This document shows, piece by piece, positions 10,097-25,594 of a DNA stretch of 64,000 nucleotides. Location of the stretch: the NCBI RefSeq assembly GCF_030128875.1, contig NZ_CP124620.1, forward strand, positions 3,476,001 to 3,540,000, in the 5' to 3' direction. A program made the translations under genes and the position numbers. Every line of letters begins with the position of its first letter. Position 1 is the first letter of the stretch. The notes beneath the pieces were generated by a model, which ran no database searches, had not been told where the DNA came from, and saw only the letters and a program-made list of their open reading frames with translations. The DNA is from Stenotrophomonas sp. BIO128-Bstrain. GTDB lineage: Bacteria > Pseudomonadota > Gammaproteobacteria > Xanthomonadales > Xanthomonadaceae.

Positions 10097-10120
10097 AAAG
10101 GGCGGCCGAAGCCGCCCTTT
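10097..10120 (-). terminator. Terminator of the EF-hand gene
   Basis: aaagggcggc and gccgcccttt pair around a cgaa loop. On the minus strand it is followed by tttctttat and lies 33 bases past the stop of the EF-hand gene. Confidence 0.7.
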
Positions 10121-10152
10121 CCCCCTCACTGCGCTACCGGTGTCCCCGGTCC

Positions 10153-10569
10153 TTACCTGCTCTGCTGGGCGCCCGTATCTGCGGCCTTGCCCTGCTGGGC
10201 AGCCACGTACGCCTTGTATTCATCCGGCGAGAGCTCGCCGTCCTTGTTGGTGTCGGCCTGGTCGAACACCTGGGCAAGACCCGCGTTCACCTGTGCCTCG
10301 GCCTTGCTGATGGTGCCGTTGCCGTCGGTATCAACGCTGGCCCAGGTCTGGCCACCGCCTCCGTTGGCCTGCGCGGAGGCCTGCGCTGCGGCGTTGGCAG
10401 CGGTATCTGCTGCGTCGCCGGCCTGCGCCGCCGCCTGCTGTGCCTGGGCGGCCTGATTCTGGGCCTGCGCGGCACTGTGCTGCGCCGACTGGGCCATCGC
10501 CGGAATGGCCAGCACACTGCCTGCGGCGACGATCAGGGCGATCAGGGGCTTGCGGATGCGAGTAGTCAT
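10153..10569 (-). CDS. Exported EF-hand calcium-binding protein
   Basis: A 138-residue protein: signal peptide (about residues 1-26, ending AMAQS), a long Ala/Gln-rich helical segment (about 27-70), a short Gly tract, then two EF-hand loops, DTDGNGTISKAE and DTNKDGELSPDEY. The second matches the canonical D-x-N-x-D-x-E-x3-E ligand pattern; the first has Asp, Asp and Asn but a less standard last ligand. The start is fixed by AAGGAG eight to ten bases ahead of the ATG; an upstream in-frame ATG at 10752 is not supported. Likely a periplasmic calcium sensor or buffer. Confidence 0.85.
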   Translation of the reverse strand: MTTRIRKPLIALIVAAGSVLAIPAMAQSAQHSAAQAQNQAAQAQQAAAQAGDAADTAANAAAQASAQANGGGGQTWASVDTDGNGTISKAEAQVNAGLAQVFDQADTNKDGELSPDEYKAYVAAQQGKAADTGAQQSR

Positions 10570-10789
10570 TGGGGTGGTCTCCTTGGTTATGTGTTGCGCG
10601 GCCTGTTGTTTCCGCACGGCCCCACACTGCCACCCCGTTTGTGAATCGATATTGCCCCTTGATCGCACTGCGCACGCCGCCTTAACCACCTCCCCGAACG
10701 CGTGCATTACCGCAGTGGTTAGCCGCAGGTGAGCAGTTGGTAACACAGGCATTCAACGGCGGCGGATTTAACCGGATGCGAACGCAATC

Positions 10790-11167
10790 TCACGCGGCGT
10801 TGCTGTTTTTTTCGGCTGAGCGGGAACTGAACAAAAGCCACCCCAGTGCGACACCGCCGATCGCGCCGGCCACTTCGAGCACCACGCGTGAGCCCAGCTC
10901 GTTCGGATCGTGGATGCTGGCCAGGAACAACCGGGCGTACAGCGGCGACTCCAGCCGCATCATGCCCATGTAGAACAGGTTCCACGCATCGATGCCGGCC
11001 GAGGCCACGACCGCGATCACGCAGGCCCAGCCGATCGCGTGCCCATCGGTCCACCCGGCCCAGCGGCACAGTCGATGCCACAGCGCATACACCAGCAGCC
11101 CGACCAGCAGCGCGATCAGGCCCGCTTCCAGCGTTCCCAGCAATCCAAAATGCAGCGGCAGGTTCAT
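10790..11167 (-). CDS. Small integral membrane protein of unknown function
   Basis: A 125-residue protein with at least three hydrophobic segments (about residues 8-29, 44-64 and 95-113) and a polar C-terminal tail. No enzymatic motif is visible. It stands between the EF-hand gene and the dipeptidase gene, all on the minus strand, with gaps of 220 and 43 bases. Family not recognised. Confidence 0.7.
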   Translation of the reverse strand: MNLPLHFGLLGTLEAGLIALLVGLLVYALWHRLCRWAGWTDGHAIGWACVIAVVASAGIDAWNLFYMGMMRLESPLYARLFLASIHDPNELGSRVVLEVAGAIGGVALGWLLFSSRSAEKNSNAA

Positions 11168-11210
11168 CGTGGTCCGATCAGGCGGTCAGCGCACAGTGTA
11201 GCGGTGCGCC

Positions 11211-11945
11211 TCAGCGGACCGGCACGTCGTAGGCGGTGGTCGGCGCCGGCTCGGGCTGCAGGGTGAAGTGCCACCACTCCATCGGGTAGTTGGCGAAGCC
11301 GCGCCGGGCCATCGCCTGGCGCAGCTGCTGGCGGTGGCGGCGCTGCACCTCACTGATCTCCGGCGCATCGGTATGCGCACGCGGGCCGAAGAAATCGAAG
11401 TCGGTGCCCATGTCCATGGGGGCGCAGGGACCCGTGCGGCAATCGAGCAAGGTCAGGTCCACGGTGGCGGCGCGGCTGTGGCCGGAAGTCTCGGCGATGT
11501 AACCGCCCAGCAGGGCCGGCTTGTCGATGTCCGGATACTGCAGGGCCTTGCGCGACTGCTCGTGCGGGTCGTGCGCCCAGGCGACGAAGGCCTTCACCGC
11601 GTGGGCCGGGCGGTAGCAATCAAAGAGGCGCAGCGCGAAGCCTTCGGCGCGCAGGTCGGCCTCCACCTGGGCCAGCGCGGTGGCCGCCGGGGCGACCAAA
11701 TAGCACTTGGGCGCGTCATAGCCGGGCACGCGCCGGCCGGTGAAGTTGTCCACGCCGGCGTAGCGGATGTCCTGCTCGATTGCCGGTGCCAGTGTGCGGA
11801 TATCGACCAGCCCGGCCTCGGCCACGTCGCGGGCCGGCAAGACGGTGACCGCCGCCGCCGCGTGGGCACTGCCTGCCAGCAGCGCCAACAGCAGCGTGCT
11901 ACGGGCAATCGCCGACGCGGGAGAAGTGCAGGTCCTGGTAGTCAT
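11211..11945 (-). CDS. ddpX: D-alanyl-D-alanine dipeptidase, VanX/DdpX family
   Basis: A 244-residue exported zinc dipeptidase that splits D-Ala-D-Ala. Signal peptide spans about residues 1-30. Family motifs are FDCYRPAHAVKAF, the zinc-binding SGHSRAATVDLTL (the SxH...D motif) and the C-terminal EWWHF that contributes the catalytic Glu and zinc-binding His. The ORF overlaps the end of the upstream serine hydrolase gene by 47 bases in another frame, indicating tight coupling. In context it is the last gene of the leftward arm of the proposed peptidoglycan-peptide locus and would liberate D-Ala from the dipeptide end of stem peptides. Confidence 0.9.
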   Translation of the reverse strand: MTTRTCTSPASAIARSTLLLALLAGSAHAAAAVTVLPARDVAEAGLVDIRTLAPAIEQDIRYAGVDNFTGRRVPGYDAPKCYLVAPAATALAQVEADLRAEGFALRLFDCYRPAHAVKAFVAWAHDPHEQSRKALQYPDIDKPALLGGYIAETSGHSRAATVDLTLLDCRTGPCAPMDMGTDFDFFGPRAHTDAPEISEVQRRHRQQLRQAMARRGFANYPMEWWHFTLQPEPAPTTAYDVPVR

Positions 11946-13476
11946 AACTGAAGTCGATCTCCGGATCGATCGCGGCCAAGGTCAAGGTGGGCGGCGCACC
12001 CGGCTGCAGTTGCAACCAGGGCTCGGCATCGGCCCCGAGCGTATCCCACTGCACCAGCCAGCGCTCCCCGAGCTGCATGACCTGGCCACGCAGCCTCGGC
12101 GACTTGGCCACGCTGAAGCGCAGCGTGCCCTGCTGCGGGCAGAGCAGGGCCTCGCCCAGCCACGGGTCGCGGTAGCGGCCCTGCGCGGCCGCCGTGGTGC
12201 GAAGCGGGGCCGGACGACGCGCACGGGTATCCGGGCGCACCTGCCCGGCCTCGCGGCGCCCGGCGCGCTCCTGCTCGAGCAGAGCCAGATAGTGGTCCAC
12301 ATCTGCGCCGTCATCCGGCGCGGTGTAGTGCTTCAACGCCGCCTGCATCAGCGCGGTGCGTGCATCTTCGGCGTCGCTGTTGATCAGGATCACCACACCC
12401 ACCTTGCGGTCCGGCAGCAGCGCGAGTGAGGAGTACATGCCCGACAGCGTGCCGGTATGGGCCACCTTCCACTGCCCGTCCATGTCCGACAGGCGCCACC
12501 CATAGCCATAGGCGGAGACGTGCGCGTCGTCCCAGCGGCGCTGCCGCTCGCCCAGTGGCATCGGCATGTGCGCGGTCCACAGCGCGTGGCGCTGCACCGC
12601 GCCCAGCCACCCGGGTACGCGCGCGGGATCGAGCAGCACCTGCATCCAGCGGGTCATGTCGTGCAGGCTGCAACGGATGCCGCCGGCGGCCATCGAAGTC
12701 AGATCGGGACTGAGGTCGCCATCGGCACCGCGCACCACGCTGCGACCGTCCTTCCGTGTATGCGGCTGGGCAACATTGCCGACCGCCGTGACCGACCACG
12801 CGCCGACCTGGCAGCGATCCATCCCCAACGGCACGAAGACCTCCTCGCGCAGCAGTTGATCGTAGGGCTTGCCGCCGGCGGCAGCAGCGACTTCACCCGC
12901 CACCACATACATCAGGTTGTCGTAGGCATAGCCGCTGCGGAAGCTGGTGACCGGCTTGAGGTGGGCCAGCCCGGCGATGATGTCCTGCCGGGTAAAGCGG
13001 TTCGGCTCGGGCCACAGCATCAGATCGCCCGCCCCCAGGCCCAGGCCGCTGTTGTGGATCAGCAGGTCGCGCACCTGCATCTGCTGCGTCACCCACGGGT
13101 CATGCATGCGGAACTGCGGCAGGTACTTGATGACCGGGTCGTCCCAGCGCAGGAGACCGCGGTCGACCAGCCGGGCCAGCAGCGCGGCGGTCATCGCCTT
13201 GCTGTTGGAGGCGATCTTGAACAGGGTGTCCGGGTTGATGGCCTCGCCCTGCCCGGCCTGGCGCTCACCACGGGTGCCGGTGAAGACAACTTCCCCGTCT
13301 TCGACCACGGCCATGGCGATGCCGGGCAGGTGTTCATGGGTGACAGCCTGATCGAGCAGCCGATTGAACGTGTCGGCCGGATCGGCTGCCCATGCGCTGG
13401 GCGCGATGGCCAGGGTGCAGGACAGGCCAAGCGTGAGAAGGCGGGATGGGATACACGGTGAGGTGCGTGACTGCAT
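11899..13476 (-). CDS. Exported serine hydrolase, beta-lactamase/penicillin-binding fold (class C type)
   Basis: A 525-residue protein of the PF00144 family. With the start at 13476 it has a signal peptide ending near AWAAD, SxxK nucleophile motif SNSK at about residue 90-93, YDN near 185 and HTG near residue 350, all in the correct order for D-aminopeptidase or D,D-peptidase type enzymes. A C-terminal domain of about 130 residues resembles the DUF3471-type tail. The ATG is preceded by GAGGGA. It lies between the TonB receptor and the D-Ala-D-Ala dipeptidase, so an action on D-amino-acid peptides is more likely than antibiotic hydrolysis, but this is inference. Confidence 0.88.
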   Translation of the reverse strand: MQSRTSPCIPSRLLTLGLSCTLAIAPSAWAADPADTFNRLLDQAVTHEHLPGIAMAVVEDGEVVFTGTRGERQAGQGEAINPDTLFKIASNSKAMTAALLARLVDRGLLRWDDPVIKYLPQFRMHDPWVTQQMQVRDLLIHNSGLGLGAGDLMLWPEPNRFTRQDIIAGLAHLKPVTSFRSGYAYDNLMYVVAGEVAAAAGGKPYDQLLREEVFVPLGMDRCQVGAWSVTAVGNVAQPHTRKDGRSVVRGADGDLSPDLTSMAAGGIRCSLHDMTRWMQVLLDPARVPGWLGAVQRHALWTAHMPMPLGERQRRWDDAHVSAYGYGWRLSDMDGQWKVAHTGTLSGMYSSLALLPDRKVGVVILINSDAEDARTALMQAALKHYTAPDDGADVDHYLALLEQERAGRREAGQVRPDTRARRPAPLRTTAAAQGRYRDPWLGEALLCPQQGTLRFSVAKSPRLRGQVMQLGERWLVQWDTLGADAEPWLQLQPGAPPTLTLAAIDPEIDFSYDYQDLHFSRVGDCP

Positions 13477-13526
13477 GGAGTCCCTCGTCATGACCGGAGC
13501 GCGTGCAACCGAAGCCGCCCGTGGAA

Positions 13527-13557
13527 GGCAGGTGCCGACCCACTGTCGGCACCTGCC
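13527..13557. repeat. Perfect 13-bp hairpin between two operon genes
   Basis: ggcaggtgccgac and its complement enclose ccact. It lies just beyond the stop of the TonB receptor gene and before the serine hydrolase gene. Without a T-run it looks like an intra-operon stabilising or attenuating hairpin. Confidence 0.6.
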
Positions 13558-13571
13558 ACGTACGCGCCGGA

Positions 13572-16500
13572 TCAGAAGTTCCAGGTCACCATCAGCTGCG
13601 TGTAGCGCGGTGCCTGCCAGCGGGTGCCGGTGTTGAAGGTGTTCTCGCGCACCTGGCCCGGCTGGGCTTCATAACGCTGATGCACGTTGATGACGGTCTG
13701 GTTGTTGAACAGGTTGTAGACCGACAGGCGTGCGCTCAGGTCGATGCCCTCCACCGGCAGGCGCCAGGTGACGTTGGCGCCCATGGTCCACGTCCACGGC
13801 AGGCGACCGAAGGCACCACGTGGGCTGTACTCGAACTGGCGCTGGTCATACGACCCCGAACAGTTCGCCACGCACAGCCAGCCTGTGCCGCCGCCGCTGC
13901 CTTCGCTGGAGGTGCTGCCACCGGCGACCGTATCGTTGGGCCACATCACGCCGAACGCCGTGATCGGGCCACCGGACAGTACCTGCAGCGTGGTGCCGAA
14001 CGACCACTGCTCGTTCAGCGCATAGGCGGCGCGGAACTTGAACTGATGGCGGAAGTCGTTGAACAACGGCCCGTAGCGCTGGTTGTTGGACGGATGATCC
14101 CAATGCTGGACCATGCCGGTGTCGCCGTAGTTGGTGTCCGAGTTGACCGGGCCTTCGAAGTTGCCATCGCTGCGCGACCACAGGTAGGACGCGTTGAACA
14201 GCCACTTCTCGTCCCACGCGCGATCGATCTGGAACTCCAGGGCCTTGTAGGTGCGCTTGGGCTTGGAGTAGCCGACCACCTCCAGGCTGCCGCCCTTGCG
14301 GTAGCCATCCTTGGAGGTATCGATGGTGATCCAGCCCTCGGTGGCGCAGCCGATGCTGGAGTCGCCCCAGATCGTCAGGCTCTCGCCCGGGTTGGCGATC
14401 GGCCACAGGGTGGTGCCGGTCGGCCCGCACGGGGTGTGGTTGATGCGCATGTCATCCAGCGCGCGGTCCATCTTGCGGTAGGTCGCGTTGACGCCCCACG
14501 ACCAGGCCTGGTTGATCATGGTCTGGAAGCCGAGGATGTACTCATCCTGGTAGACCGCCTTCAGGTCCTTGTCCACGCTCTGGCGCAGGTCGGCCGCGCC
14601 GGTGTTCATGCGGGTATCGACCGGGCCGATCTGCTGGCCGATGACCGGGGCCATGTACGGTGCGCCGGTGACCGGGTTGGCCTGCTGCTGCCAGCCGTTG
14701 AGCACGTAGTAGGAGTACTCGTCGGTGAGGCCACCGGCGAAGTTGACGTTGATGTTGTTGGTCACCGGCAGGTAGTAACGGCCGGCGTTGCCGAACAGCT
14801 TGGTGCTGCCATTGCCCTTCATGTCCCAGGAGAAGCCGAAGCGCGGTGCGATCAGGTCATCCATCTTGATGAAGGCGTCGCCATCGGCGGTGCGGTTCTC
14901 GAAGCGGTCCCAGCGCACGCCGAGGTTCAACATCAGGTTCGGGGTGATGTTCCAGATGTCTTCCAGGTAGAAGGCGTTGGCCTCGGTCTCGAAGGTGCCT
15001 CCGGAGACGCGGTTGCGCGCGCGCAGCATCTCGGTCACGCCCGCGGGAACATAGGCATTGGCGCCGTCCCATACCTCATCACCCGGGCGGGCCACGTAGG
15101 CGGTATAGCTGAGCTGGGTCGGGCCCGGGTAGCGGGTGGACTGCTCGGTGGTCATCAACTCACGGTCCACGCCGAAGCGCAGCAGATGCGTGCCCAGCTG
15201 CCATTCGAAGTCCAGGCGGGCCACCTCGCGCGTGTCGTCGCGCTCGGCAACCGCGGCACCGGTAGGATGGCAGCCCGCGCGCAGGCCGTTGAGCTTGCCC
15301 AGGCGGGAGGCATAGCTGGCATCGGTGAACACCGGGCTGCACGCCTCATCGAGCGAGGAGTTGGTGAAAGCCCGCTGGTTGTTCTCGCCCACCATGGCGC
15401 GCGCGGTGAAGTTTTCGCCGAAGTGACCGGTGTACGTCGCCGACCAGTTCTTGCCACCGGTCTCGGTGACCGAGTCACCGCCCCACGCGCCGATCTGGTC
15501 GTCATCCCAGTCGTAGTTGTACGCGCCGTTGGTGATCTCGCCTTCGTCGGAGAAGGCCAGCAGTGCCAGGCTGTGGTTGTCGTTGATGTTCCAGTCCAGC
15601 TTGGCGCCCCAGAAGCCGTTGTCGCTCTTGTTCTTGAACCAGCTCAGCGCATCGGAGGAGGTGTTGTGGCCGGTGTCGTTGCGGTCCTCATACATCGCGA
15701 ACAGGAACAGCTTGTCCTTGATGATCGGACCGGACCCCCAGACGTTGGTCTTCAGGAACGAGTTGTTGTCGCGGCTTGCGTAGGAGTGCGGGGTGCCATC
15801 GCGGTGGAAGTGATCACGCGGGCTGGACCGCCATGCGCTGGGCTCGGCCGTCACCTCCACACCGCCCTGCAACTCGTTGGTGCCCGAGCGGGTGACTGCA
15901 TTGATCACACCGCCGGTGGAGCGGCCGAATTCGACCGAATAGCCGCCGGTCTTGACCTGGAATTCGTTGAAGAAGCCGAATGGCGCGCTGGAGAAGCCGC
16001 GGCGGGTATACATGTCGGTGACGTTCAGGCCGTTGATGAAGACCGCGTTCTCGGCCACCGAGGAGCCGGCGAAGGACAGGCCGCCGAACGAAGAATTGCC
16101 GCCCACCACGCCCGGCGCCAGCAGCGCCACCGCCGACAGATCCTGCGCGACCGGCAGGCGCGAGAGCTCCTGGCGGTTCACGTTGAACGAGGTTTCCGTG
16201 GAATACACGTCCACGCGATTGACGACGCGGGTGCCGACCACCTGCAGCGCATCGAGGTTGACCACGCCGCCACTGCTGGCCAGGTTGACGGTGGTCGTAC
16301 CACCGACCGCAACACTGACCGCGAACGGCTCGCCGAGCTTCTGGCCATCGCGGCTCACCTGCAGCTGGTAGTCGCCCACCGGTAGCTGGCCCAGGCGATA
16401 GCTGCCGTCGGCGCTGGCCGTCACTGTCCGGGTCAGGCCGGTCGCGTTGCTGACGACCGTGACCTGGTCACCGGCAGTGGCACGCCCCGCGACGGCACCG

Positions 16501-16598
16501 CTGACATTCTGTGCCGAAGCACTCATCGGTACCAGGCTGCCCAGACACGCCCCGAGCGCAACGCACAGCGCTGCCCGCTTCAATCGATTTACGTTCAT
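13572..16598 (-). CDS. TonB-dependent receptor, Oar-like, with N-terminal carboxypeptidase-regulatory domain
   Basis: A 1008-residue outer-membrane receptor. After the signal peptide (ending near SASAQ) comes a carboxypeptidase-regulatory beta domain (about residues 30-110: VSGAVAG...GSYRLGQLPVGDYQL), a plug domain (LDALQVVGTRV, later EFGRSTGGVINAVTRSGTNE) and a 22-strand-type barrel ending in the C-terminal aromatic WNF. These features match Oar/OmpA-related TonB receptors of xanthomonads. The start at 16598 (MNVNRLKRA) is favoured by the signal peptide. It is 43 bases downstream of the transglutaminase-like gene, so probably co-transcribed. The ligand is unknown; neighbours suggest peptides from peptidoglycan. 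Confidence 0.92.
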   Translation of the reverse strand: MNVNRLKRAALCVALGACLGSLVPMSASAQNVSGAVAGRATAGDQVTVVSNATGLTRTVTASADGSYRLGQLPVGDYQLQVSRDGQKLGEPFAVSVAVGGTTTVNLASSGGVVNLDALQVVGTRVVNRVDVYSTETSFNVNRQELSRLPVAQDLSAVALLAPGVVGGNSSFGGLSFAGSSVAENAVFINGLNVTDMYTRRGFSSAPFGFFNEFQVKTGGYSVEFGRSTGGVINAVTRSGTNELQGGVEVTAEPSAWRSSPRDHFHRDGTPHSYASRDNNSFLKTNVWGSGPIIKDKLFLFAMYEDRNDTGHNTSSDALSWFKNKSDNGFWGAKLDWNINDNHSLALLAFSDEGEITNGAYNYDWDDDQIGAWGGDSVTETGGKNWSATYTGHFGENFTARAMVGENNQRAFTNSSLDEACSPVFTDASYASRLGKLNGLRAGCHPTGAAVAERDDTREVARLDFEWQLGTHLLRFGVDRELMTTEQSTRYPGPTQLSYTAYVARPGDEVWDGANAYVPAGVTEMLRARNRVSGGTFETEANAFYLEDIWNITPNLMLNLGVRWDRFENRTADGDAFIKMDDLIAPRFGFSWDMKGNGSTKLFGNAGRYYLPVTNNINVNFAGGLTDEYSYYVLNGWQQQANPVTGAPYMAPVIGQQIGPVDTRMNTGAADLRQSVDKDLKAVYQDEYILGFQTMINQAWSWGVNATYRKMDRALDDMRINHTPCGPTGTTLWPIANPGESLTIWGDSSIGCATEGWITIDTSKDGYRKGGSLEVVGYSKPKRTYKALEFQIDRAWDEKWLFNASYLWSRSDGNFEGPVNSDTNYGDTGMVQHWDHPSNNQRYGPLFNDFRHQFKFRAAYALNEQWSFGTTLQVLSGGPITAFGVMWPNDTVAGGSTSSEGSGGGTGWLCVANCSGSYDQRQFEYSPRGAFGRLPWTWTMGANVTWRLPVEGIDLSARLSVYNLFNNQTVINVHQRYEAQPGQVRENTFNTGTRWQAPRYTQLMVTWNF

Positions 16599-16641
16599 TC
16601 CCTGCTCTCTCCTGCAGATGTGGAATCGTGGATACCGCCGT

Positions 16642-18114
16642 TTACCGCTTGGCCTCCAGTGGCACCACGTGCGACTGGACGTCGTAGTTCCATTGATCGA
16701 AATACAGGTTGCCGCCGGACCACTCGGCCTCGCCGCGCTGGGAATCCACCGTGTCCGACCGGAAGTGCTGCTTGGCCGGCACCAGTGGCTGGGCGTAGTC
16801 GTCGTTGAAGGCGATGCGATAGGCATCCAGCCCACCCAGATAGAAATCGCGCAGCGCGGGCTGCGGGCTGTCCAGGCGCCCGGTGGTGACATCCATCGGT
16901 ACCCAGCCGTAGGGCGCCAGGTACAGCGCGCCCCAGTCATGCAGGTTGTTGTAGCCGACCGCATCGTCGGAATAGACCATGCCCGACTGCCAGCGCGCGG
17001 GGATGCCGTTCAGGCGCAACAGCGCGATCAGCAGCAGCGTCTGCTGCCCGCAATCGGCGTGACCGGCGTGCAGCGCGTAGTCGCTGATGTTGGAGATCGT
17101 GGCGTACTCGCGGGCGCCGGCCCATGGAATCCGGTCCACGGCGTCGAACAGCTTCTGGACGATCTGGTAGGGATCGGTTTCGGTCCCGACCACCTGCTGC
17201 GAGAACGCGCGCAACGCCGGGGTGAACACCACGTGCGGCGCCTGCTCGGCGAGGTACGGCTTCAGCGCGGGGTCGTCCGGCGTGGGCTGGACCCTGGCAG
17301 GATCGATCGTGATATGCCGCGCGTACACGGTGACCGCGTAGCGGATCTGGAACTCGGTCGGGGTGCCGGCCACCGCCTTGCGTTCCAGGTAGGCGGTGCG
17401 TTGCAACGCACTGTCAGGCGCCACCTGGGCGCGGTCAGGCGTACTCGCGACCCAGGTGATGTCTTCCTGCTGGCCGGCGATGGCACGTGGGTAGGGAATC
17501 CATGCGCGGATGGTTTCCCCGGCCGGCACGGCATCGGGCTTGACCACCAGCGACTGGGTCACCTCGATGCGGCGCGGCACCAGGCTGGTCGCGCCCGTAG
17601 CGCGGGCGGCCGCGACGATCTCCTCATGGTGCGGGTGCAGATGCTCATAGGGGCCCTCCTTCGGCAGCGGGGCCCCGGGTGACCGCCGGGCGCGCGCCTC
17701 GGCGCTGATCCGGAACAGGTTGGACGGCGCGCGCTTGAAGTAGCGGCGCTGGCCATCGATATCCAGGTGTTCGATCAGGCCGGCAGAATCCCAGCGCGCG
17801 AATTCGTCATCGAGAAGGTCGGGAATCTGCTTGCGCAGCTGCGCCTTGGCCGCCGCCGCGTCCAGGGTGAAGTCCAGTCGCATGCGGCGCATCCGCTCGC
17901 GCTCGAAGGCATAGGCCTGACGCTCGGCATCCGACAGGCTCGGATCCTGCAACGCCGTGGCGATGTCGACCTCGGCCTGCGCGAACGCACCGCGGTCGAT
18001 GCCGGCGATCACCGTCGGCAGCGCGACCGGCGCGGCGGCCAGCCCCCACGGCAACGCCAGCAGACCAGCGCACAGGCACCAGACAGCAGGCAGAGGCAAT
18101 CGCGGTTTGCGCAT
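16642..18114 (-). CDS. Exported transglutaminase-like cysteine peptidase
   Basis: A 490-residue protein with a signal peptide (start MRKPRLPLPAV) and a transglutaminase-core domain in its second half. The catalytic triad is visible as HADCGQQ (Cys about 355), NLHDWG (His about 391) and PMDVTTG (Asp about 407). Bacterial members often cleave or rearrange peptide bonds rather than crosslink proteins. The N-terminal half is helical and Arg-rich with no recognised domain. It is the first gene of the leftward transcript, starting 146 bases from the divergent NlpC/P60 gene. Role in the locus: periplasmic processing of peptide ligands, by inference. Confidence 0.85.
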   Translation of the reverse strand: MRKPRLPLPAVWCLCAGLLALPWGLAAAPVALPTVIAGIDRGAFAQAEVDIATALQDPSLSDAERQAYAFERERMRRMRLDFTLDAAAAKAQLRKQIPDLLDDEFARWDSAGLIEHLDIDGQRRYFKRAPSNLFRISAEARARRSPGAPLPKEGPYEHLHPHHEEIVAAARATGATSLVPRRIEVTQSLVVKPDAVPAGETIRAWIPYPRAIAGQQEDITWVASTPDRAQVAPDSALQRTAYLERKAVAGTPTEFQIRYAVTVYARHITIDPARVQPTPDDPALKPYLAEQAPHVVFTPALRAFSQQVVGTETDPYQIVQKLFDAVDRIPWAGAREYATISNISDYALHAGHADCGQQTLLLIALLRLNGIPARWQSGMVYSDDAVGYNNLHDWGALYLAPYGWVPMDVTTGRLDSPQPALRDFYLGGLDAYRIAFNDDYAQPLVPAKQHFRSDTVDSQRGEAEWSGGNLYFDQWNYDVQSHVVPLEAKR

Positions 18115-18160
18115 CACAGGATCCACGGCGACACTTCCCAGGTGCGGGTGGGGTAATCGC

Positions 18161-18189
18161 TGTGTAACACGGGCCTGATAGCCGGTCAA
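18161..18189 (-). promoter_or_regulatory. Candidate promoter of the leftward arm
   Basis: On the minus strand TTGACC (plus 18184-18189) and TACACA (plus 18161-18166) are separated by 17 bases, 47 bases ahead of the transglutaminase-like start codon. Confidence 0.45.
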
Positions 18190-18232
18190 TAATTTATTCT
18201 TGCTTTCGCCGAAAAAAGGAATAAATATTCCT
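18187..18232. promoter_or_regulatory. Candidate pair of operators in the divergent region
   Basis: Two AT-rich sites share TATTCyTG: at 18195-18202 (within aataatttattcttg) and at 18226-18233 (within the inverted repeat aggaata-aa-tattcct, 18217-18232). They are 31 bases apart, about three helical turns, and sit next to the -35 of the left promoter and on the -10 of the right promoter. The RpiR-type regulator encoded four kilobases away is the natural candidate ligand. Confidence 0.45.
18200..18227 (+). promoter_or_regulatory. Candidate promoter of the rightward arm
   Basis: TTGCTT (18200-18205) and TAAATA (18222-18227) with a 16-base spacer, 32 bases before the NlpC/P60 start. The -10 overlaps an inverted repeat. 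Confidence 0.5.
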
Positions 18233-18259
18233 GACGCTTCCGAGGAGGGTGACCGCGTG

Positions 18260-19705
18260 ATGATCCAGGCTTCCCCCCACCGCCCCGTGCGGTCCCGCTG
18301 GTTGTCGCGCGCCGTGCTGGCGGCGGTCCTTGCGGCCACGCTGGCACCTGCCTGGGCCGAGGCGCCGCGTGCCGCACCCGGCGCCGACTTCGGCGGGGTG
18401 ATCGCCCTGCGCGAGGCCTATCTCGCGCCCGGCTTCTGGGCCGACCGCCTGCCCGATCCGGACCGCGTGATCCTCGATCGCGCGGGTATCGCCGCACAGA
18501 ACGCCCGCATGCGTGCCGAGGACGCCTCGATCCACGATCTGCGCGCGTTGCCGGCGCAGCTGCCCCGCGAGCAGGTGCTGGGCAGCATCCAATCGCTCTC
18601 CAGGTGGCCCGAGCGCACCTTGTACGGCCAGGATGGCAAGACCATCAGCGACCGGCAGCGCAGCGAGACCCTGGCCAACCTGGCACTCGCCGCGGTTCCG
18701 GCGCAGCGCCCGCTGCAGTATGGCCTGGTCACCCATCGCGCCGCGCTGCGCGCGTTCCCGACCGCGCTGCGGGTGTTCAGCAGCCAGGGCGACACCGACA
18801 TCGACCGCTTCCAGGAGTCGGCGCTGTTCCCCGGCGACGCGGTGGCGGTGCTGCATGAAAGCGCTGACGGGCGCTGGCTGTTCATCACCAGCGAACGCTA
18901 CTCGGCGTGGATCGAGAAGCGCTTCGTCGGCATCGGCGACGCCGACACCGTGCTCGGTTACGGCCAGCATGGCCCGTACCGGGTGGTCACCGGGGCCACC
19001 GCGTTCACCGCGTACACGCCGGAGGAGCCGCGCGTGTCGCGGCTGCAGCTGGACATGGGCGTGCGCCTGCCGGTGATCGCCGGCTGGCCGCTGGAGAAGA
19101 CCGTCAACGGCCAGCAGGCCCACGCCGCGCATGTGGTGCAGTTGCCGGTGCGCGAGGCCGATGGCCGCCTGTCACTGGTGCCGGCACTGCTGCCGCGCTC
19201 GCAGGACACCGCCGACGACTATCTGCCGCTGACCCCACGGACACTGCTCACCCAGGCCTTCAAGTTCCTCGGCGAGCGCTACGGCTGGGGCCACGACTAC
19301 GACACCCGCGACTGCAGTGGCTTCGTCTCTGAGATCTACCGCAGCGTCGGCGTGTTGATGCCGCGCAATACCAGCGCACAGGCGGTCAGCCCGGCGCTGG
19401 ACCGCATCGCCTTCAGCGCGAAGGACGGGAAAGCCACGCGCGACACGGCCGTCAAGCAGCTGCAGGTCGGCGACCTGGTCTACATCCCCGGCCACGTGAT
19501 GATGGCGATCGGCCACATCGACGGCCGCACCTGGCTGATCCACGATACCGCCGGCGGTGGCTGGATCGGCGCGGATGGCACGCGCGTGCAGGCCCACCTC
19601 AACGGCGTGTCGGTCACTCCGCTGGAGCCGATGATGGCCAGCGATACCGTGAGCTACATCGACCGCATCACCAACATCCAGCGCCTTCGGCCACAGACCC
19701 CCTGA
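18260..19705 (+). CDS. Exported NlpC/P60 peptidase with SH3-like domains
   Basis: A 481-residue protein with a signal peptide (about residues 1-35, ending AWAEA), a middle region resembling bacterial SH3 wall-binding modules, and a C-terminal NlpC/P60 domain. Catalytic Cys is in TRDCSGFVSEIYR (about residue 352), His in PGHVMMAIG (about 412) and the third polar residue in LIHDTAGGG (about 427). The architecture is that of gamma-D-glutamyl-diamino-acid endopeptidases such as YkfC, which release L-Ala-D-Glu from murein peptides. GAGGAGG precedes the ATG. It abuts the epimerase gene with no gap. Confidence 0.9.
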   Translation: MIQASPHRPVRSRWLSRAVLAAVLAATLAPAWAEAPRAAPGADFGGVIALREAYLAPGFWADRLPDPDRVILDRAGIAAQNARMRAEDASIHDLRALPAQLPREQVLGSIQSLSRWPERTLYGQDGKTISDRQRSETLANLALAAVPAQRPLQYGLVTHRAALRAFPTALRVFSSQGDTDIDRFQESALFPGDAVAVLHESADGRWLFITSERYSAWIEKRFVGIGDADTVLGYGQHGPYRVVTGATAFTAYTPEEPRVSRLQLDMGVRLPVIAGWPLEKTVNGQQAHAAHVVQLPVREADGRLSLVPALLPRSQDTADDYLPLTPRTLLTQAFKFLGERYGWGHDYDTRDCSGFVSEIYRSVGVLMPRNTSAQAVSPALDRIAFSAKDGKATRDTAVKQLQVGDLVYIPGHVMMAIGHIDGRTWLIHDTAGGGWIGADGTRVQAHLNGVSVTPLEPMMASDTVSYIDRITNIQRLRPQTP

Positions 19706-20812
19706 ATGAAGATCACCGACATCGAACTCGGCATGCTGCGCGTGCCGTTGAAGACCCCGTTCAAGACCGCGCTGCGCACCGTGGACACCGTCGAAGACGT
19801 GGTCGTGCTGATCCGCACCGACAGCGGCCATACCGGCTACGGTGAAGCGCCGGCCACTGCGGTGATCACCGGCGATACGCACGGCTCGATCATCGAGGCC
19901 ATCGACGGCTTCATCAAACCGCGCCTGATCGGCGAGGACGTGGCCAACCTCAACCGGCTCTGCGGCCTGATCCAGACCTCGATGGAGCGCAACACCAGCG
20001 CCAAGGCCGCGGTGGAGATCGCGGTCTACGATCTGTGGGCGCAGCTGCACAACGCGCCGCTGTACCGGATGCTGGGTGGCGGCGACCCGGTGATCACCAC
20101 CGACATCACCATCAGCGTGGACTACATCGACAAGATGGTGGCCGACTCGCTCTCGGCGATCGAGCGCGGCTTCGAGTCCCTGAAGATCAAGGTCGGCAAG
20201 GACATCGGCCTGGATATCGAGCGGGTCAAGGCGATCCATGCCGCGGTGCAGGGTCGCGCCCTGCTGCGCCTGGATGCCAACCAGGGCTGGACCGCAAAGC
20301 AGGCCGTGCACGCGATGCGGGCGCTGGAAGAGGCCGGCGTGGTGCTGGAACTGCTGGAGCAGCCGGTGAAGGCCGCCGACATCAGCGGCCTGAAGTACGT
20401 CACCGACCGGGTCAACACCCCGGTGATGGCCGATGAAAGCGTGTTCAATCCCGGCCAGGTGTTCGACCTGATCCAGCAGCGCGCGGCCGACATTATCAAC
20501 ATCAAGCTGATGAAGACCGGCGGCCTCTCCAATGCGATCCGCATCGCCGATATCGCCGCGATCTACGGCGTGCCATGCATGATCGGCTGCATGATCGAAT
20601 CGAGCATCTCCGTGGCCGCCGCCGTGCACCTGGCCGTCGCCAAGAGCGACATCATCACCAAGGTGGATCTGGATGGGCCGTCGCTGGGCCAGTTCAACCC
20701 GGTGACCGGTGGGGTCAACTTCAACGAATCGGAGATCACCATCAGCGATGCGCCCGGGTTGGGCATCACCGAGGTGCGTGGGCTGGAGATGATCACGCCG
20801 CGGCGGTGGTGA
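19706..20812 (+). CDS. L-Ala-D/L-Glu epimerase (YcjG/YkfB type, enolase superfamily)
   Basis: A 368-residue cytoplasmic enzyme of the muconate-lactonising subgroup. The catalytic pattern is present: KIK (about Lys159 and Lys161) on strand 2, metal ligands in LDANQGW (Asp189), LEQP (Glu218) and ADES (Asp243), and the opposing Lys in INIKLMKTGG (about 268), followed by CMIESSIS and VDLDGP. This is the signature of dipeptide epimerases, which convert L-Ala-D-Glu from murein to L-Ala-L-Glu so that peptidases can cleave it. Its ATG directly follows the stop of the NlpC/P60 gene, implying translational coupling. Confidence 0.92.
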   Translation: MKITDIELGMLRVPLKTPFKTALRTVDTVEDVVVLIRTDSGHTGYGEAPATAVITGDTHGSIIEAIDGFIKPRLIGEDVANLNRLCGLIQTSMERNTSAKAAVEIAVYDLWAQLHNAPLYRMLGGGDPVITTDITISVDYIDKMVADSLSAIERGFESLKIKVGKDIGLDIERVKAIHAAVQGRALLRLDANQGWTAKQAVHAMRALEEAGVVLELLEQPVKAADISGLKYVTDRVNTPVMADESVFNPGQVFDLIQQRAADIINIKLMKTGGLSNAIRIADIAAIYGVPCMIGCMIESSISVAAAVHLAVAKSDIITKVDLDGPSLGQFNPVTGGVNFNESEITISDAPGLGITEVRGLEMITPRRW

Positions 20813-20841
20813 CCGTTGTATCCGCCTCGCCGGTCGCCTAC

Positions 20842-20915
20842 GGTAGAGCCACGCCATGCGTGGCTGCCGTTCGCGCAATCCCACCTGCCGCAGCCACCCA
20901 TGGTGTGGCTCTACC
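20842..20915. repeat. GTAGAGCC-type palindromic repeat
   Basis: ggtagagccacgccatgcg starts the left arm; an imperfect inverted arm ends ggctctacc at 20915. It resembles SMAG elements in its GTAG ends but has a different core, so it is probably another subfamily. It occupies the gap between the epimerase and regulator genes. Confidence 0.75.
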
Positions 20916-20933
20916 GGATCTGACGCCCTCCCC

Positions 20934-21782
20934 ATGCCGCCCCTGGTGAAAATCCGCTCCGAGCGTGACCACATGTCGGCGATCGAACGCCGCATCGCCG
21001 ACTTCATCCTCGACAACGCCCACCTCCTGCGCGATTACTCCTCCCAGCAGCTGGCCAGCGCCTTGGGCATCAGCCAGTCCAGCGTGGTCAAGTTCAGCCA
21101 GAAACTGGGCTTCAAAGGCTATCCGGACCTCAAGTACTCCATCGGCGAGGCCGTCGCGCGCGCCGGCAGCGACCCGCACAGCCGCCCGCCGCTCCCAGAG
21201 GCCGCCAACGACTACACCCAGATCGCCGAGCGCCTGCGCGTGAGCAAGGCCGCCGCCGAGGAAGAAACCTGGCTGGCCAATCCCCAGGCCGACATCGAAG
21301 CGATCGTGCAGCTGATCGATGGCGCGCCCAAGGTGTTCGTCTACGGTCTGGGCGACGACGGCCTGTACGCCCGCGAATTCGCCATGCGCCTGTCGCTGCT
21401 GGGCATGCTTACCGTGCACCACGCCGACCCGATCCTGATGATGGCCAACCTCTCGGCCGCACGGCCCGGGGACGCGATGCTGGTGTTCTCCGAGTTCGGC
21501 AAGCTGCCACAGCTGTTCCAGCTGTCGCGCCAGTTCCAGGACATGGGCGGCAAGGTGGTGTCGATCACCCGCCACAGCGCCAACCCGTTGCGCGCCCATG
21601 CCGATGCCAGCCTGGTGCTGTGCGCGCATGACCCGGCGCCGCACGTGGCGCAACTGCTGTACCGTTCTTCTCTGCAGGCGCTGCTGGATTTCGTCTTCGT
21701 CCTGCTGTGCCACGCCAACCCGGACCGCCACCGCCAGCTCGGGGTGAACCTGGAACGGATCGAACATTTGATCGACAGCTGA
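20934..21782 (+). CDS. RpiR/MurR-family transcriptional regulator
   Basis: A 282-residue regulator with an N-terminal helix-turn-helix (SAIERRIADFILDN, QQLASALGISQSSVVKFSQK, about residues 14-65) and a C-terminal SIS sugar-isomerase domain (KVFVYGLGDDGLYAREFA, about 125-265). Members sense phosphosugars; MurR in E. coli controls N-acetylmuramic-acid use. Here it lies inside the peptide-recycling genes, suggesting it senses a wall-derived metabolite and controls the divergent promoters at about 18.2 kb. The start at 20934 (MPPLVKIRSERDHM) is favoured by homology. Confidence 0.9.
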   Translation: MPPLVKIRSERDHMSAIERRIADFILDNAHLLRDYSSQQLASALGISQSSVVKFSQKLGFKGYPDLKYSIGEAVARAGSDPHSRPPLPEAANDYTQIAERLRVSKAAAEEETWLANPQADIEAIVQLIDGAPKVFVYGLGDDGLYAREFAMRLSLLGMLTVHHADPILMMANLSAARPGDAMLVFSEFGKLPQLFQLSRQFQDMGGKVVSITRHSANPLRAHADASLVLCAHDPAPHVAQLLYRSSLQALLDFVFVLLCHANPDRHRQLGVNLERIEHLIDS

Positions 21783-21799
21783 TCCTGGAGTCCGCCACG

Positions 21800-22558
21800 A
21801 TGATGCCGCTGTTCCGTTCCGTCACCGCCGCCGTGATGCTGGTCATCGCCGCCCCCGTGTTCGCCGCCGCGCTGGAGGGCAGCACGCAGCTGGTCGTGGT
21901 CACCACCGAGGGCTGGGAGGCCACCCAGGGCAAGCTGCAGGCCTTCGAGCGCACCGCGAAGGGCTGGCAGCCGCAGGGCGCCGCCTTCGATGTCGCCGTG
22001 GGCCGCAGCGGCAGCGCGTGGGGCGAAGGGCTGCACCCGGCCCAGTCCGGGACGCAACGGAAGCAGGAAGGCGATGGCCGCAGCCCGGCCGGCATCTTCG
22101 CGATCGGCCCGGCCTTCGGCTATGCGCGCGGCGTCACCAGCGGCCTGCCCTACCAGCCGATGCGCGACACCAGTTACTGCATGGATGTGCCGGACTCGCC
22201 GTACTACAACCGCATCGTCGATGCCGAGGTGGTCGGTGCCGAAGCGGTGGAAGGCTCGACCGAGCCGATGCGGCTGGACCTGCACAACAAGGGCGACGTG
22301 CGCTACCGCGAAGGCTTCGTCATCGAGCACAACCCGAACGCGACGCCCGGCCGTGGCAGCTGCATCTTCGCCCACCTGTGGCGCACACCCGGTGAGGCGA
22401 CCGCCGGCTGCACCGCGATGGACCCGGCGCGCATGACCACGCTGCTGGCGTGGCTGGACGCCAGCGCGCGGCCGCGCTTCGTGCTGTTGCCACGCGCGGA
22501 ATACCAGCGCCTGCAGGCCGAATGGCAGCTGCCCGTGCTGGCCGGGAGCGTGCATTGA
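21800..22558 (+). CDS. Exported YkuD/L,D-transpeptidase-fold protein
   Basis: A 252-residue protein with a signal peptide (ending near FAAAL) and a YkuD-like domain. The expected active-site region is SCIFAHLW (His about 191) followed by TAGCTAMD (Cys about 204). The usual second residue after the Cys pattern (HGC) is AGC here, as in YkuD subgroups typified by ErfK-unrelated YafK-like hydrolases. It may cut or form bonds at the third stem-peptide residue; L,D-carboxypeptidase activity would fit the locus. The gene follows the regulator by 17 bases, and its stop overlaps the permease start. Confidence 0.82.
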   Translation: MMPLFRSVTAAVMLVIAAPVFAAALEGSTQLVVVTTEGWEATQGKLQAFERTAKGWQPQGAAFDVAVGRSGSAWGEGLHPAQSGTQRKQEGDGRSPAGIFAIGPAFGYARGVTSGLPYQPMRDTSYCMDVPDSPYYNRIVDAEVVGAEAVEGSTEPMRLDLHNKGDVRYREGFVIEHNPNATPGRGSCIFAHLWRTPGEATAGCTAMDPARMTTLLAWLDASARPRFVLLPRAEYQRLQAEWQLPVLAGSVH

Positions 22559-23856
22559 GCACCGCGGCGCCCGACCCGCAACTCGAACGCGCGGTTAGCC
22601 GCTGGCAGATCGTCGGCCTTTCGATCAACGATGTGATCGGCAGTGGCATCTACCTGCTGCCGGCGGCCACCGTCGCCCTGCTCGGTCCCTTCAGCCTGTG
22701 GGGGGTGGTCGCGGCCGGCATCGTGGTCGCCCTGCTGGTGCTCTGCTATGCGCAGGCAGCCAGCTATTTCGACGAGCCGGGCGGCAGCTATCTGTATGCG
22801 CGCGAGGCATTCGGCCGGTTTGCCGGGTTCGAGATCGGCTGGATGATCTGGCTCACCCGCATCAGCTCGGCGGCGGCGCTCAGCAACGCGCTGGCCGATG
22901 CGGTCGCGCGGTTCTGGCCCTGGGCCGGGCATGACATCGGCCGTATCGCGGTCATCGTGGTCTCGCTGGGCTTCCTCACCGCGGTGAACGTGGCCGGGGT
23001 GCGCTCGGCCGCGCGTACCGGTGTGATCCTGGTGATCGGCAAGCTGCTGCCGCTGGTGCTGTTCGTGGCGATCGGCGCGTTCTACGTGGATACCGAGCTG
23101 GCCTTCTCCGGCGTACGCCCGGACCCGCACGATCTGCAGCGCATGGGCGAAGCAGCGCTCCTGCTGCTGTATGCCTATGCCGGTTTCGAGAACATCCCGG
23201 CCGCTGCCGGTGAGTACAAGAACCCGCGCCGCGATATTCCGTTCGCGCTGATCACCATGATCATCACCGTCACCGTGATTTACGGCGCGGTGCAGTTCAT
23301 CGCACAGGGCACGCTGGCCGGGCTGGCCAGTTCGCCGACGCCGCTGGCCGATGCCGCCGCCAGCTTCGGCGGGCTCACCCTCGCCCTGATCCTCACCGTG
23401 GGCGCAACGATCTCCATCCTCGGCACCAACAGCAACACGATGATGATGGGTCCGCGCTTCCTGTTCGCGTTGGCGCGCGATGGCTACGGGCCGAAGATCC
23501 TGGCGCAGGTGCATCCGCGCTTCCGCACCCCGGCGGCGGCGATCATCGCGCAGGGCCTGATCGCCCTGGCGCTGGCCCTGTCCGGTTCGTTCGTGCAGCT
23601 GGCGCTGCTGTCGATGACCACGCGCCTGTTCGCCTACATCGGCACGGCCGCGGCGGTGCTGGTGCTGGCGCGCCGGTTCCGTGATCGCCCTGGCGCGTTG
23701 AAGCTGCCCGGCGGACCGCTGATCCCGATCCTCGCACTGCTGTTGTGCCTGGCCTTGTTCGCCAGCGCGAGCTGGCAGAACATCGCGGCGGCAGGCATCG
23801 CCTTCGCGGTAGGCGCGGTCATCTATAAATTCCCACGCCGCGATCACCAAGCCTGA
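22555..23856 (+). CDS. APC-superfamily amino acid or peptide permease
   Basis: A 433-residue polytopic membrane protein with about twelve transmembrane segments. The family motif SINDVIGSGIYLLPAATV occurs in the first helix, and YAYAGFENIPAAAGE in helix 6. The likely start is TTG at 22555, giving a TTGA overlap with the preceding stop; no ATG or GTG near the homology start is in frame. It would import amino acids or dipeptides produced outside the membrane. Its position parallels YkfD-like transporters in murein-peptide operons, although from another family. Confidence 0.87.
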   Translation: MSTAAPDPQLERAVSRWQIVGLSINDVIGSGIYLLPAATVALLGPFSLWGVVAAGIVVALLVLCYAQAASYFDEPGGSYLYAREAFGRFAGFEIGWMIWLTRISSAAALSNALADAVARFWPWAGHDIGRIAVIVVSLGFLTAVNVAGVRSAARTGVILVIGKLLPLVLFVAIGAFYVDTELAFSGVRPDPHDLQRMGEAALLLLYAYAGFENIPAAAGEYKNPRRDIPFALITMIITVTVIYGAVQFIAQGTLAGLASSPTPLADAAASFGGLTLALILTVGATISILGTNSNTMMMGPRFLFALARDGYGPKILAQVHPRFRTPAAAIIAQGLIALALALSGSFVQLALLSMTTRLFAYIGTAAAVLVLARRFRDRPGALKLPGGPLIPILALLLCLALFASASWQNIAAAGIAFAVGAVIYKFPRRDHQA

Positions 23857-23866
23857 GCAGGTGTGC

Positions 23867-23897
23867 AGGTGAATGGCACTTGATGTGTCATTCACCT
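23867..23897 (+). terminator. Hairpin after the permease gene
   Basis: aggtgaatg and cattcacct enclose a 13-base loop, 11 bases past the permease stop. There is no clear T-run, so it is a possible weak terminator at the end of the rightward operon. Confidence 0.5.
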
Positions 23898-23961
23898 CGC
23901 CGGTCCATGGCGTTAACCCGGCTTTGGGTACGGTGAAGCCTCACCCAACCGGAGCCAACAC

Positions 23962-24309
23962 ATGAGCACTGACTATCAGATTCCCGGCCGGGTGCCGGAA
24001 GACGGTGTCCCGCGCCAGGCCGTATCGGATTACTGGCGTGAGCGCTTTCCAAGCGAACCGTACTATGACAACAACCAGTTCTTCGATGACTACGAGCCGG
24101 CCTACCAGCTCGGCCATCGCACCCGCGCTGACGACATGATCCGCGCGTATGAAGAAGTGGAAGCCGAGCTTCAGGCCCGCTGGGCGCAGGAACATGGCCA
24201 GAGCAAGCTGAGCTGGGAACAGGCCCGCAATGCGGTGCGCCGCGGCTGGGATGAGTCCACCGCGCTGCGCCAGGCGCACCTGGACAAGGGCGTCCCGCGC
24301 GGCACCTGA
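23962..24309 (+). CDS. Small acidic conserved protein of unknown function
   Basis: A 115-residue soluble protein without signal peptide, starting after CCGGAGCC. It is rich in Tyr, Phe, Asp and Glu in its first half (DYWRERFPSEPYYDNNQFFDDYEP) and has a C-terminal amphipathic helical part (EQARNAVRRGWDES). The general look is that of small stress-related proteins, but I do not recognise a named family. It is separated from neighbours by a hairpin upstream and 136 bases downstream. Confidence 0.7.
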   Translation: MSTDYQIPGRVPEDGVPRQAVSDYWRERFPSEPYYDNNQFFDDYEPAYQLGHRTRADDMIRAYEEVEAELQARWAQEHGQSKLSWEQARNAVRRGWDESTALRQAHLDKGVPRGT

Positions 24310-24445
24310 CGCGCACTCCCCGATTCACCTCCAGCGGCGGCCCTCGGGTCGCCGTTGTCGTGTGGGCAGGACCTCTGGTCCACGCGGCGTTGATGGGCAT
24401 GGTGTACAACAGGGGTTGGCCATCGCCTCCCCGACGGAGACTTCC

Positions 24446-25594
24446 ATGACCCGCAAGCTCTTGCTTACCCTCGCCATCAGCCTCACCCCCGCCCTGTTCA
24501 CCACCGCCTGTGTTGCTGCCGACAAGGCCGCCGCCCCGGCCGTGGAAAAAGCGCAGTGGCCGTTCGCCGCCACCGAATTGGCCCGCTTCAACGAGCCCTG
24601 GGCGATGAGTTTCCTGCCCGACGGCAGCCTGCTGGTCACCGAGAAGAAAGGCGCACTGAAGCACTTCAACGTGCAGACCCGCAAAACCGCCACCATCACC
24701 GGCGTCCCTGACGTCGCCTACGGCGGCCAGGGCGGCTTCGGCGATGTGCTGCCGCACCCGGACTTCGCGAAGAACCAGTGGATCTATCTCAGCTACGCCG
24801 AAGAAGGCGACGGTGATACCCGTGGCGCTGCGGTTGCCCGTGCGCGGCTGGCGCTGGCGGCCGATGGCAGCGGCACGCTTGAAGACCTGAAGGTGATCTG
24901 GCGCCAGACCCCGAAAGTGAGCGGCAAGGGGCATTACGGCCATCGCCTCGCGTTCGGTCCGGACGGCAAGCTGTGGATCACGTCCAGCGAGCGCCAGAAG
25001 TTCGATCCGGCCCAGGACATGGGCGGCAACCTCGGCAAGCTGGTCCGCCTCAATGACGACGGCAGCGTGCCCGCCGACAACCCGTTCGCCTCGCAGGGCG
25101 GCGTGGCCGCGCAGGTGTGGTCGCTCGGCCACCGCAATGCGCTGGGCATCGCCTTCGATGCGCGCGGCAAGCTGTGGGTGCATGAGATGGGCCCGGCCGG
25201 CGGCGATGAGCTGAATCTGATCGAGCGCGGGGCCAACTACGGCTATCCGATCGTCTCCAACGGCAATCACTACGACGGCCGCGACATTCCCGACCATTCC
25301 ACCCGCCCGGAATTCGCCGCGCCCAAGGTGACCTGGACCCCGGTGATCTCGCCGGCCGGTTTCATCATCTACAACGGCAAACAGTTCCCCAAGTGGGACG
25401 GCAGTGGCTTCATTGGCGGCCTGTCCTCCAAGGCGCTGGTGCGCGTGGCCTTCGACGGCGACAACGCCCGCGAGGCCGAGCGCTTCGACATGGGCGAGCG
25501 CATCCGCGAGATCGAACAGGGTCCGGATGGCGCGATCTGGCTGCTCGAAGACGGCAGCAACGGCAAGCTGCTCAAGCTCACGCCGAAAGCCTGA
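24446..25594 (+). CDS. PQQ-dependent aldose sugar dehydrogenase family protein
   Basis: A 382-residue exported protein of the soluble glucose/aldose sugar dehydrogenase family, six-bladed beta-propellers that use pyrroloquinoline quinone. Family blocks are FNEPWAMSFLPDGSLLVTEK, GGFGDVLPHPDF, the His-containing GHYGHRLAFGPDGKLWIT, GHRNALGIAF and HEMGPAGGDELNLI. The signal region ends with FTTAC, so it could be a lipoprotein. The ATG at 24446 begins the signal peptide. It likely oxidises sugars in the periplasm. It is convergent with the next gene across a strong hairpin. Confidence 0.9.
   Translation: MTRKLLLTLAISLTPALFTTACVAADKAAAPAVEKAQWPFAATELARFNEPWAMSFLPDGSLLVTEKKGALKHFNVQTRKTATITGVPDVAYGGQGGFGDVLPHPDFAKNQWIYLSYAEEGDGDTRGAAVARARLALAADGSGTLEDLKVIWRQTPKVSGKGHYGHRLAFGPDGKLWITSSERQKFDPAQDMGGNLGKLVRLNDDGSVPADNPFASQGGVAAQVWSLGHRNALGIAFDARGKLWVHEMGPAGGDELNLIERGANYGYPIVSNGNHYDGRDIPDHSTRPEFAAPKVTWTPVISPAGFIIYNGKQFPKWDGSGFIGGLSSKALVRVAFDGDNAREAERFDMGERIREIEQGPDGAIWLLEDGSNGKLLKLTPKA

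Follow-up and report, generated by a model that had tools for sequence, protein, structure and literature searches.

In the AmpG/Mpl/LdcA pathway, murein peptides from turnover of the cell's own wall are recycled, beginning at the inner membrane. A locus of Stenotrophomonas sp. BIO128-Bstrain raises the question of whether wall peptides could also be taken up through a dedicated outer-membrane receptor. The locus lies in a window of 64,000 nucleotides (positions 3476001-3540000 of a one-contig genome of 4.49 Mb) and comprises nine genes within 11211-23856, four on the - strand and five on the + strand, arranged back to back around 18115-18259 (Table 1). A preliminary description of this DNA had assigned a domain to each of the nine genes and placed them in one divergent unit; every domain that it named was recovered there by Pfam, the catalytic residues were intact, and both the layout and the gene order were kept over many species. 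On balance, the somewhat favoured reading is that the locus serves the utilisation of murein stem peptides and is supplied by an outer-membrane receptor, its enzymatic core being well supported at the level of sequence. It would then belong to the TonB-linked utilisation loci, with wall peptides as its target, and its most unusual feature is an exchangeable receptor.

The core is formed by the SH3b-NlpC/P60 peptidase (hereafter NlpC) and the epimerase, with the stop of the former abutting the start of the latter at 19705/19706. The closest solved protein to the epimerase was the L-Ala-D/L-Glu epimerase 1jpm (E = 4.4e-103, residues 1-355). Its Lys residues, which we take to be the acid/base residues of the enolase superfamily, the presumed Asp/Glu/Asp metal ligands and the C-terminal DxD were conserved at 100% in 140 Lysobacteraceae loci (residue percentages here and below are over the loci in which the gene concerned was found, and the roles of the catalytic motifs in the other locus enzymes are likewise assumed). 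These invariant residues are held in the motifs LKIKVGKD, RLDANQGW, LEQPV, MADESV, INIKLMK and VDLDGP. In the NlpC protein an SH3 domain precedes the Cys/His/His NlpC domain, the Cys and two His were conserved at 100% in 137 loci, and the best solved match was 3m1u, a putative gamma-D-glutamyl-L-diamino acid endopeptidase. Because of the catalytic residues, the nearest solved enzymes and the AmiD-type amidase found in related loci (see below), the predicted stem-peptide role of these two proteins, already proposed in the preliminary description, is well supported. That the locus degrades other D-amino-acid or gamma-glutamyl peptides, such as secondary metabolites, rather than murein is quite unlikely. 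Dipeptide epimerases of the enolase superfamily vary in specificity, the bonds cut by the other four hydrolases are assigned by family only, and equivalog cut-offs were not reached, the epimerase scoring 252.7 of 500 bits for NF041118 and 110.4 of 343 bits for PRK15129 in NCBIfam; however, the epimerase scores 348.5 bits against the solved Ala-Glu enzyme and only 269.5 bits against the next dipeptide epimerase of solved structure, the NlpC gene stands directly before it in 137 of the 140 loci, and a muramoyl-alanine amidase occurs in related loci.

The enzymes had further been proposed to cover the bonds of a murein stem peptide, which held by sequence for NlpC and the epimerase; the bonds cut by the M15, penicillin-binding/beta-lactamase-fold (PBP), YkuD-fold and transglutaminase-fold (TG) proteins are predictions from family membership. 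For the M15 protein, the only solved relative at E<=0.001 was 1r44, a D-alanyl-D-alanine dipeptidase; with 178.6 of 320 bits it fell below the NCBIfam VanX equivalog cut-off and is classed as VanX-type M15 only, its His/Asp/Glu/His of the zinc-ligand fold being conserved at 100% in 79 loci. AmpH, below cut-off, was the best NCBIfam match of the PBP protein among the matches listed, and the Ser and Lys of SxxK were conserved at 100% in 109 loci, where YxN and HTG were also conserved. The YkuD-fold protein retained its His and Cys at 100% in 111 loci, and no YkuD-family solved structure appeared among its sequence matches. A peptidase of the S66 (LdcA) type was not found in the window genome and was found in just 7 of 60 family genomes, one of this genus, which leaves a place that the YkuD protein could take if it is an L,D-carboxypeptidase. 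In the TG protein, Cys/His/Asp were conserved at 100% in 109 loci and invariant in an alignment of 26 sequences (the window protein and 25 of 67 TG relatives), which also served for an AlphaFold model. This model was of low confidence (mean predicted local distance difference test 62, predicted template-modelling score 0.45); a Foldseek search with it matched only three chains of 3isr, a putative cysteine protease, at <1e-3 with TM-scores of 0.21-0.23 by query length, and the fold assignment is taken from Pfam alone. Among 370 class-wide genomes, spread thinly over many families, four carried a full-length TG protein at at least 69% identity, all of the window's family, and the other 55 matching genomes gave partial or weak matches. 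The role of the TG protein in the locus is a putative one.

Conservation across the Lysobacteraceae was assessed from two sources. A named-genome scan took the best 80 of 500 epimerase relatives (L031-L110), a set leaning to close relatives, and a family search covered 149 genomes, 95 of which had an epimerase match. Thirty of the matching genomes were excluded because their 4-kb loci (L001-L030) were too short to be tallied; the remaining ones gave 60 stretches, mostly of about 20 kb, from 59 genomes (L156-L215, G052 contributing twice), with G134, three genomes at contig ends or fragmentary (G087, G108, G128) and two with weak matches only (G062, G095) also left out. The resulting 140 loci, scored with profiles built from the loci themselves, are not 140 independent species, as the same species may recur. 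The window's epimerase has 100% identical counterparts in a Stenotrophomonas bentonitica record and in Stenotrophomonas sp. SAM-B. An Oar receptor and TG were found together in 107 of the 140 loci, Oar without TG in six (one on a short contig), TG without a receptor in one, and a non-Oar TonB receptor in 12, ten of these divergent from NlpC and two downstream on the same strand (L168, L176). By the same profile scoring, no receptor or TG was detected in 14 loci, four of them cut by a contig end, and NlpC was not found in L176, L209 and L210. Plug and barrel were verified by Pfam in five non-Oar receptors (L080, L093, L096, L106, L107) and in an additional receptor in each of L098 and L102, the remaining non-Oar receptors being scored by profile only. 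These counts agree with the expectation of the preliminary description that receptor and TG would be conserved beside the epimerase and NlpC genes in relatives. Since some TonB receptor is present at 125 of the 140 loci, 12 of them with a non-Oar type, its claim of an outer-membrane receptor as part of the system is also supported. Two divergent epimerases (65-66%), in L209 (7194-8405) and L210, stand without any other detected locus gene, and a neighbour of the one in L209 weakly resembles a phage integrase, with a score below cut-off. The L039 locus, of Stenotrophomonas type and with an epimerase 96% identical, comes from a record titled Bacillus subtilis SK7B5, which is probably contaminated or mislabelled.

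The receptor gene has been repeatedly swapped between lineages, and its neighbours have not. Loci L059 and L062, for example, share only 48% identity in the receptor but 89% in TG, 85% in PBP, 96% in NlpC and 99% in the epimerase. Five such pairs were compared at the DNA level in 200-base steps, giving identities of mostly 75-96% in the flanks and 52-79% in the receptor gene, with the shift at or near the gene ends. On an NlpC plus epimerase tree of 106 loci with receptor and TG (quick maximum likelihood, simple model, no bootstraps), two receptor classes set at 60% identity needed 26 changes, and 16 clusters set at 70% needed 45. Controls, all from the same locus, needed 13 changes for 14 clusters of TG (106 rows), 12 for 13 of PBP (94), 15 for 16 of the RpiR-type regulator (100) and 30 for 28 of YkuD (86), so that the receptor is the one gene in this comparison that conflicts with the tree. 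An Oar paralogue (G000:C1:1659172) was unusable as a further control, being accessory (9 of 61 genomes at at least 86%). Across 61 genomes of the genus, the best match to the receptor was at least 85% identical in 25, 59-70% in 14, 49-51% in 21 and distant only in one; it was therefore matched at 49-100% in 60 of the 61, and no genome lists two at at least 49%. Between receptor classes the plug core (two 40-residue steps) was 74-80% identical and the other steps 30-58%. The shared plug and the unchanged enzymes would argue for one class of ligand and for pressure on the surface, for example from phages or bacteriocins, and escape from such agents using the receptor would be the most likely driver of the swapping. 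Oar serves protease release in Myxococcus and, by analogy, the receptor might function in export or as a partner of the TG-fold enzyme at the cell surface, the enzyme then acting on prey walls or proteins outside the cell; in line with this, TG accompanies Oar in 107 of 113 loci and none of the 12 other TonB receptors. The permease and the remaining enzymes with signal peptides are, however, in keeping with import, and such a role is very unlikely.

Two palindromes in the divergent promoter are probably operators of the RpiR-type regulator, the first, AATAATTTATT, overlapping a -10-like hexamer at 18188-18193. Over 135 loci with enough sequence, the operator 1 pattern AATAANTTATT was found upstream of NlpC in 101, with 22 copies elsewhere in the locus DNA (2.52 Mb), and the operator 2 pattern GAATANNTATTC in 60, with eight copies elsewhere in that DNA; the patterns were picked after viewing the loci and the loci are related, so these counts are not independent tests. 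Both operators were present in 59 loci, and in all 59 their centres were exactly 31.5 bp apart, or three helical turns. For operator 2, GGAATANNTATTCC has in the 4.49 Mb genome one exact copy and two more at one mismatch, compared with one site for the reversed pattern at up to one mismatch. The usual SIS phosphate loop of phosphosugar-sensing RpiR/MurR regulators is SxSGxT. In the present regulator the corresponding loop is FSE.G (Ser 98% and Glu 99% in 120 loci), which aligns to FSLSGST of the phosphosugar-binding relative 8txl and does not show the second Ser and the Thr expected of that group. With FSE.G in place of SxSGxT, the inducer may be something other than a phosphosugar, possibly a peptide. 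Neither the operator pair nor the receptor swapping figured in the preliminary description; both were added by the present analysis.

Related loci also bear on the substrate. The gene divergent from NlpC encodes an AmiD-type amidase (Amidase_2) in L199 and L206, with close relatives at the same place in L200 and L203, all four being receptor-less loci. By tblastn over 130 scored loci, this amidase was found in 16 of the 24 without Oar plus TG and in 10 of the 106 with both (by class, 11 of 11 with a non-Oar receptor, 4 of 8 with neither, 1 of 4 with Oar alone and 0 of 1 with TG alone), and its presence in loci without the usual front end points to peptidoglycan. The permease position was variable: APC was present in 60 of the 140 loci, SDF in 52 and DUF819 in 20, and some loci carried two of them; none was detected in 14 and ten were cut short. 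Between the M15 gene and the amidase, L199 (3573-4928) encodes a protein with VgrG3-like C-terminal, peptidoglycan-binding and X-Tfe (XVIPCD) domains, and L200 likewise by similarity. XVIPCD marks bacteria-killing effectors of type IV secretion, and the VgrG3-like domain is a peptidoglycan-degrading one. This protein in the receptor-less L199 and L200 is a possible link between killing and the use of wall peptides.

Several observations weigh against a stem-peptide locus fed by a receptor. No epimerase match was found in 54 of the 149 family genomes, and the locus proteins reached no NCBIfam cut-off among the matches listed. As family-wide sites the operators were rejected in part, site 2 being missing in 75 of the 135 loci and both sites in 33. 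The alternation between TG and amidase was not significant on the tree (independent pairs, 1-3 opposite and 0 same, median p 0.25), and the window genome has an AmiD-like gene elsewhere (L216:3177-3845), with a lipoprotein-like start (by eye) and 66% identity to the locus amidase; the idea of TG as a stand-in for a muramoyl-alanine amidase was therefore dropped, and the amidase data are taken as support for the substrate class and not for any functional exchange between TG and amidase. Mpl and AmpG of the window genome score above their cut-offs, so own-wall recycling may not need the locus. Finally, ten loci uncut by a contig end had no detected receptor, among them L212, with a weak Oar-like match 5.6 kb downstream. 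The presence of AmpG and Mpl, and the ten receptor-less loci, eight of which have NlpC beside the epimerase, would suit an alternative in which the enzymes serve to recycle wall peptides of the cell itself, with the TonB receptor a mere neighbour that has an unrelated ligand. This is nevertheless unlikely, as a TonB receptor is kept beside the enzymes at most loci even where its type differs, and in the rearranged L168 and L176 the receptor and PBP genes lie together downstream of the epimerase on the same strand.

The features of the locus are collected in Table 1. Likely starts inside the mechanical open reading frames were placed by sequence reading for the receptor, TG and NlpC (16598, 18114 and 18260), and signal peptides were judged by eye, without a predictor. 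The predicted topology puts the receptor in the outer membrane, the five hydrolases in the periplasm, the permease in the inner membrane, and the epimerase and regulator in the cytoplasm. No RNA elements were found within 10000-26000 at gathering scores. Just outside the locus lies an EF-hand protein gene (10153-10752, - strand), and after it a glucose/sorbosone dehydrogenase-like protein gene (24230-25594), with a small open reading frame (23962-24309) in between.

Table 1. Genes and putative operators of the divergent locus, in window coordinates.
Feature	Position	Strand	Basis
VanX-type M15 D-Ala-D-Ala dipeptidase, signal peptide (by eye)	11211..11945	-	Pfam PF01427 3.2e-42
Penicillin-binding/beta-lactamase-fold serine hydrolase (PBP), signal peptide (by eye)	11899..13491	-	PF00144 1.6e-63
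Oar-like TonB-dependent receptor, 1008 aa from ATG at 16598	13572..16598	-	CarboxypepD_reg + Plug + TonB barrel (Pfam)
Transglutaminase-fold (TG) putative peptidase, 490 aa, signal peptide (by eye)	16642..18114	-	PF01841 Transglut_core 8.1e-17
Putative operator 1, AATAATTTATT	18188..18198	.	Palindrome in divergent promoter
Putative operator 2, GGAATAAATATTCC	18218..18231	.	Palindrome in divergent promoter
SH3b + NlpC/P60 peptidase, predicted gamma-D-Glu-diaminoacid endopeptidase, signal peptide (by eye)	18260..19705	+	SH3_6 + NLPC_P60
L-Ala-D/L-Glu (dipeptide) epimerase, no signal peptide seen (by eye)	19706..20812	+	MR_MLE N + C domains
RpiR/MurR-type regulator, start perhaps 20934	20856..21782	+	HTH_6 + SIS (Pfam)
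YkuD-fold protein, possible L,D-carboxypeptidase, signal peptide (by eye)	21800..22558	+	PF03734 weak, 24.9 bits vs cut-off 23.4
APC-family amino-acid permease	22450..23856	+	PF13520 AA_permease_2 3.4e-46

In the proposed mechanism, the Oar-like receptor would bring wall-derived peptides or muropeptides, its putative ligands, into the periplasm, where the M15, PBP-fold, YkuD-fold and TG-fold enzymes would trim them and an AmiD-type amidase (encoded elsewhere in this genome and inside the locus in some relatives) could detach the stem from its glycan. The SH3b-NlpC enzyme would then cut the bond between gamma-D-Glu and meso-diaminopimelate to give L-Ala-D-Glu, the permease (APC here, SDF or DUF819 in relatives) would carry the dipeptide or amino acids inward, and the cytoplasmic epimerase would yield L-Ala-L-Glu, cleavable by ordinary peptidases. 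Both arms would be governed by the RpiR-type protein, whether as repressor or activator, through the two operators three helical turns apart, and the receptor gene would be exchanged repeatedly between lineages, most likely in escaping phages or bacteriocins.

Known systems share parts of this arrangement. The ykf operon of B. subtilis serves murein peptide use, and the present locus likewise has an L-Ala-D/L-Glu epimerase (by closest solved homologue) beside an SH3b-NlpC/P60 peptidase, but adds a TonB receptor, more periplasmic hydrolases, an RpiR regulator, an APC permease and a divergent organization. The AmpG/Mpl/LdcA pathway also acts on murein stem peptides, and its Mpl and AmpG are present in the window genome; it differs in taking up the cell's own turnover products at the inner membrane, in ligation, in having no outer-membrane receptor and in the S66 LdcA type not found here. 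The FpvA pyoverdine receptors exist as receptor types and, as here, a polymorphic TonB receptor sits in a conserved neighbourhood; unlike FpvA, the neighbouring enzymes of the present locus do not co-vary with receptor class. The TonB carbohydrate loci of Xanthomonas (PMC1790865) and the N-acetylglucosamine loci of Caulobacter (PMC13046382) similarly combine a TonB receptor, an inner-membrane transporter, catabolic enzymes and a local regulator, but handle sugars, whereas the present locus is directed at peptide bonds and the D-Glu stereocentre. In passages of the Caulobacter recycling paper, the TonB receptors mentioned belong to N-acetylglucosamine uptake clusters (PMC13046382). The Xanthomonas survey reports seven Oar-like receptors in Xanthomonas campestris pv. 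campestris, and the words peptidoglycan, murein, epimerase and cycloisomerase do not occur in its main text (PMC1790865). In the titles and abstract openings of the literature searched, with subscription papers and preprints outside its scope, no TonB receptor was linked to murein-peptide enzymes.

Tentatively, the Lysobacteraceae may possess a dedicated outer-membrane import for the wall peptides of other bacteria, obtained by scavenging or by eating their kills, in which the receptor is exchangeable and diversified by phages or bacteriocins and the enzymes are inherited vertically. If true, exogenous cell wall would be a nutrient with a genetic address, in the form of a family-wide locus. 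The swapping of the receptor gene alone would offer a clean case for what selects receptor diversity under an unchanged catabolic pathway, and the fixed two-site operator could provide a reporter for finding the inducer.

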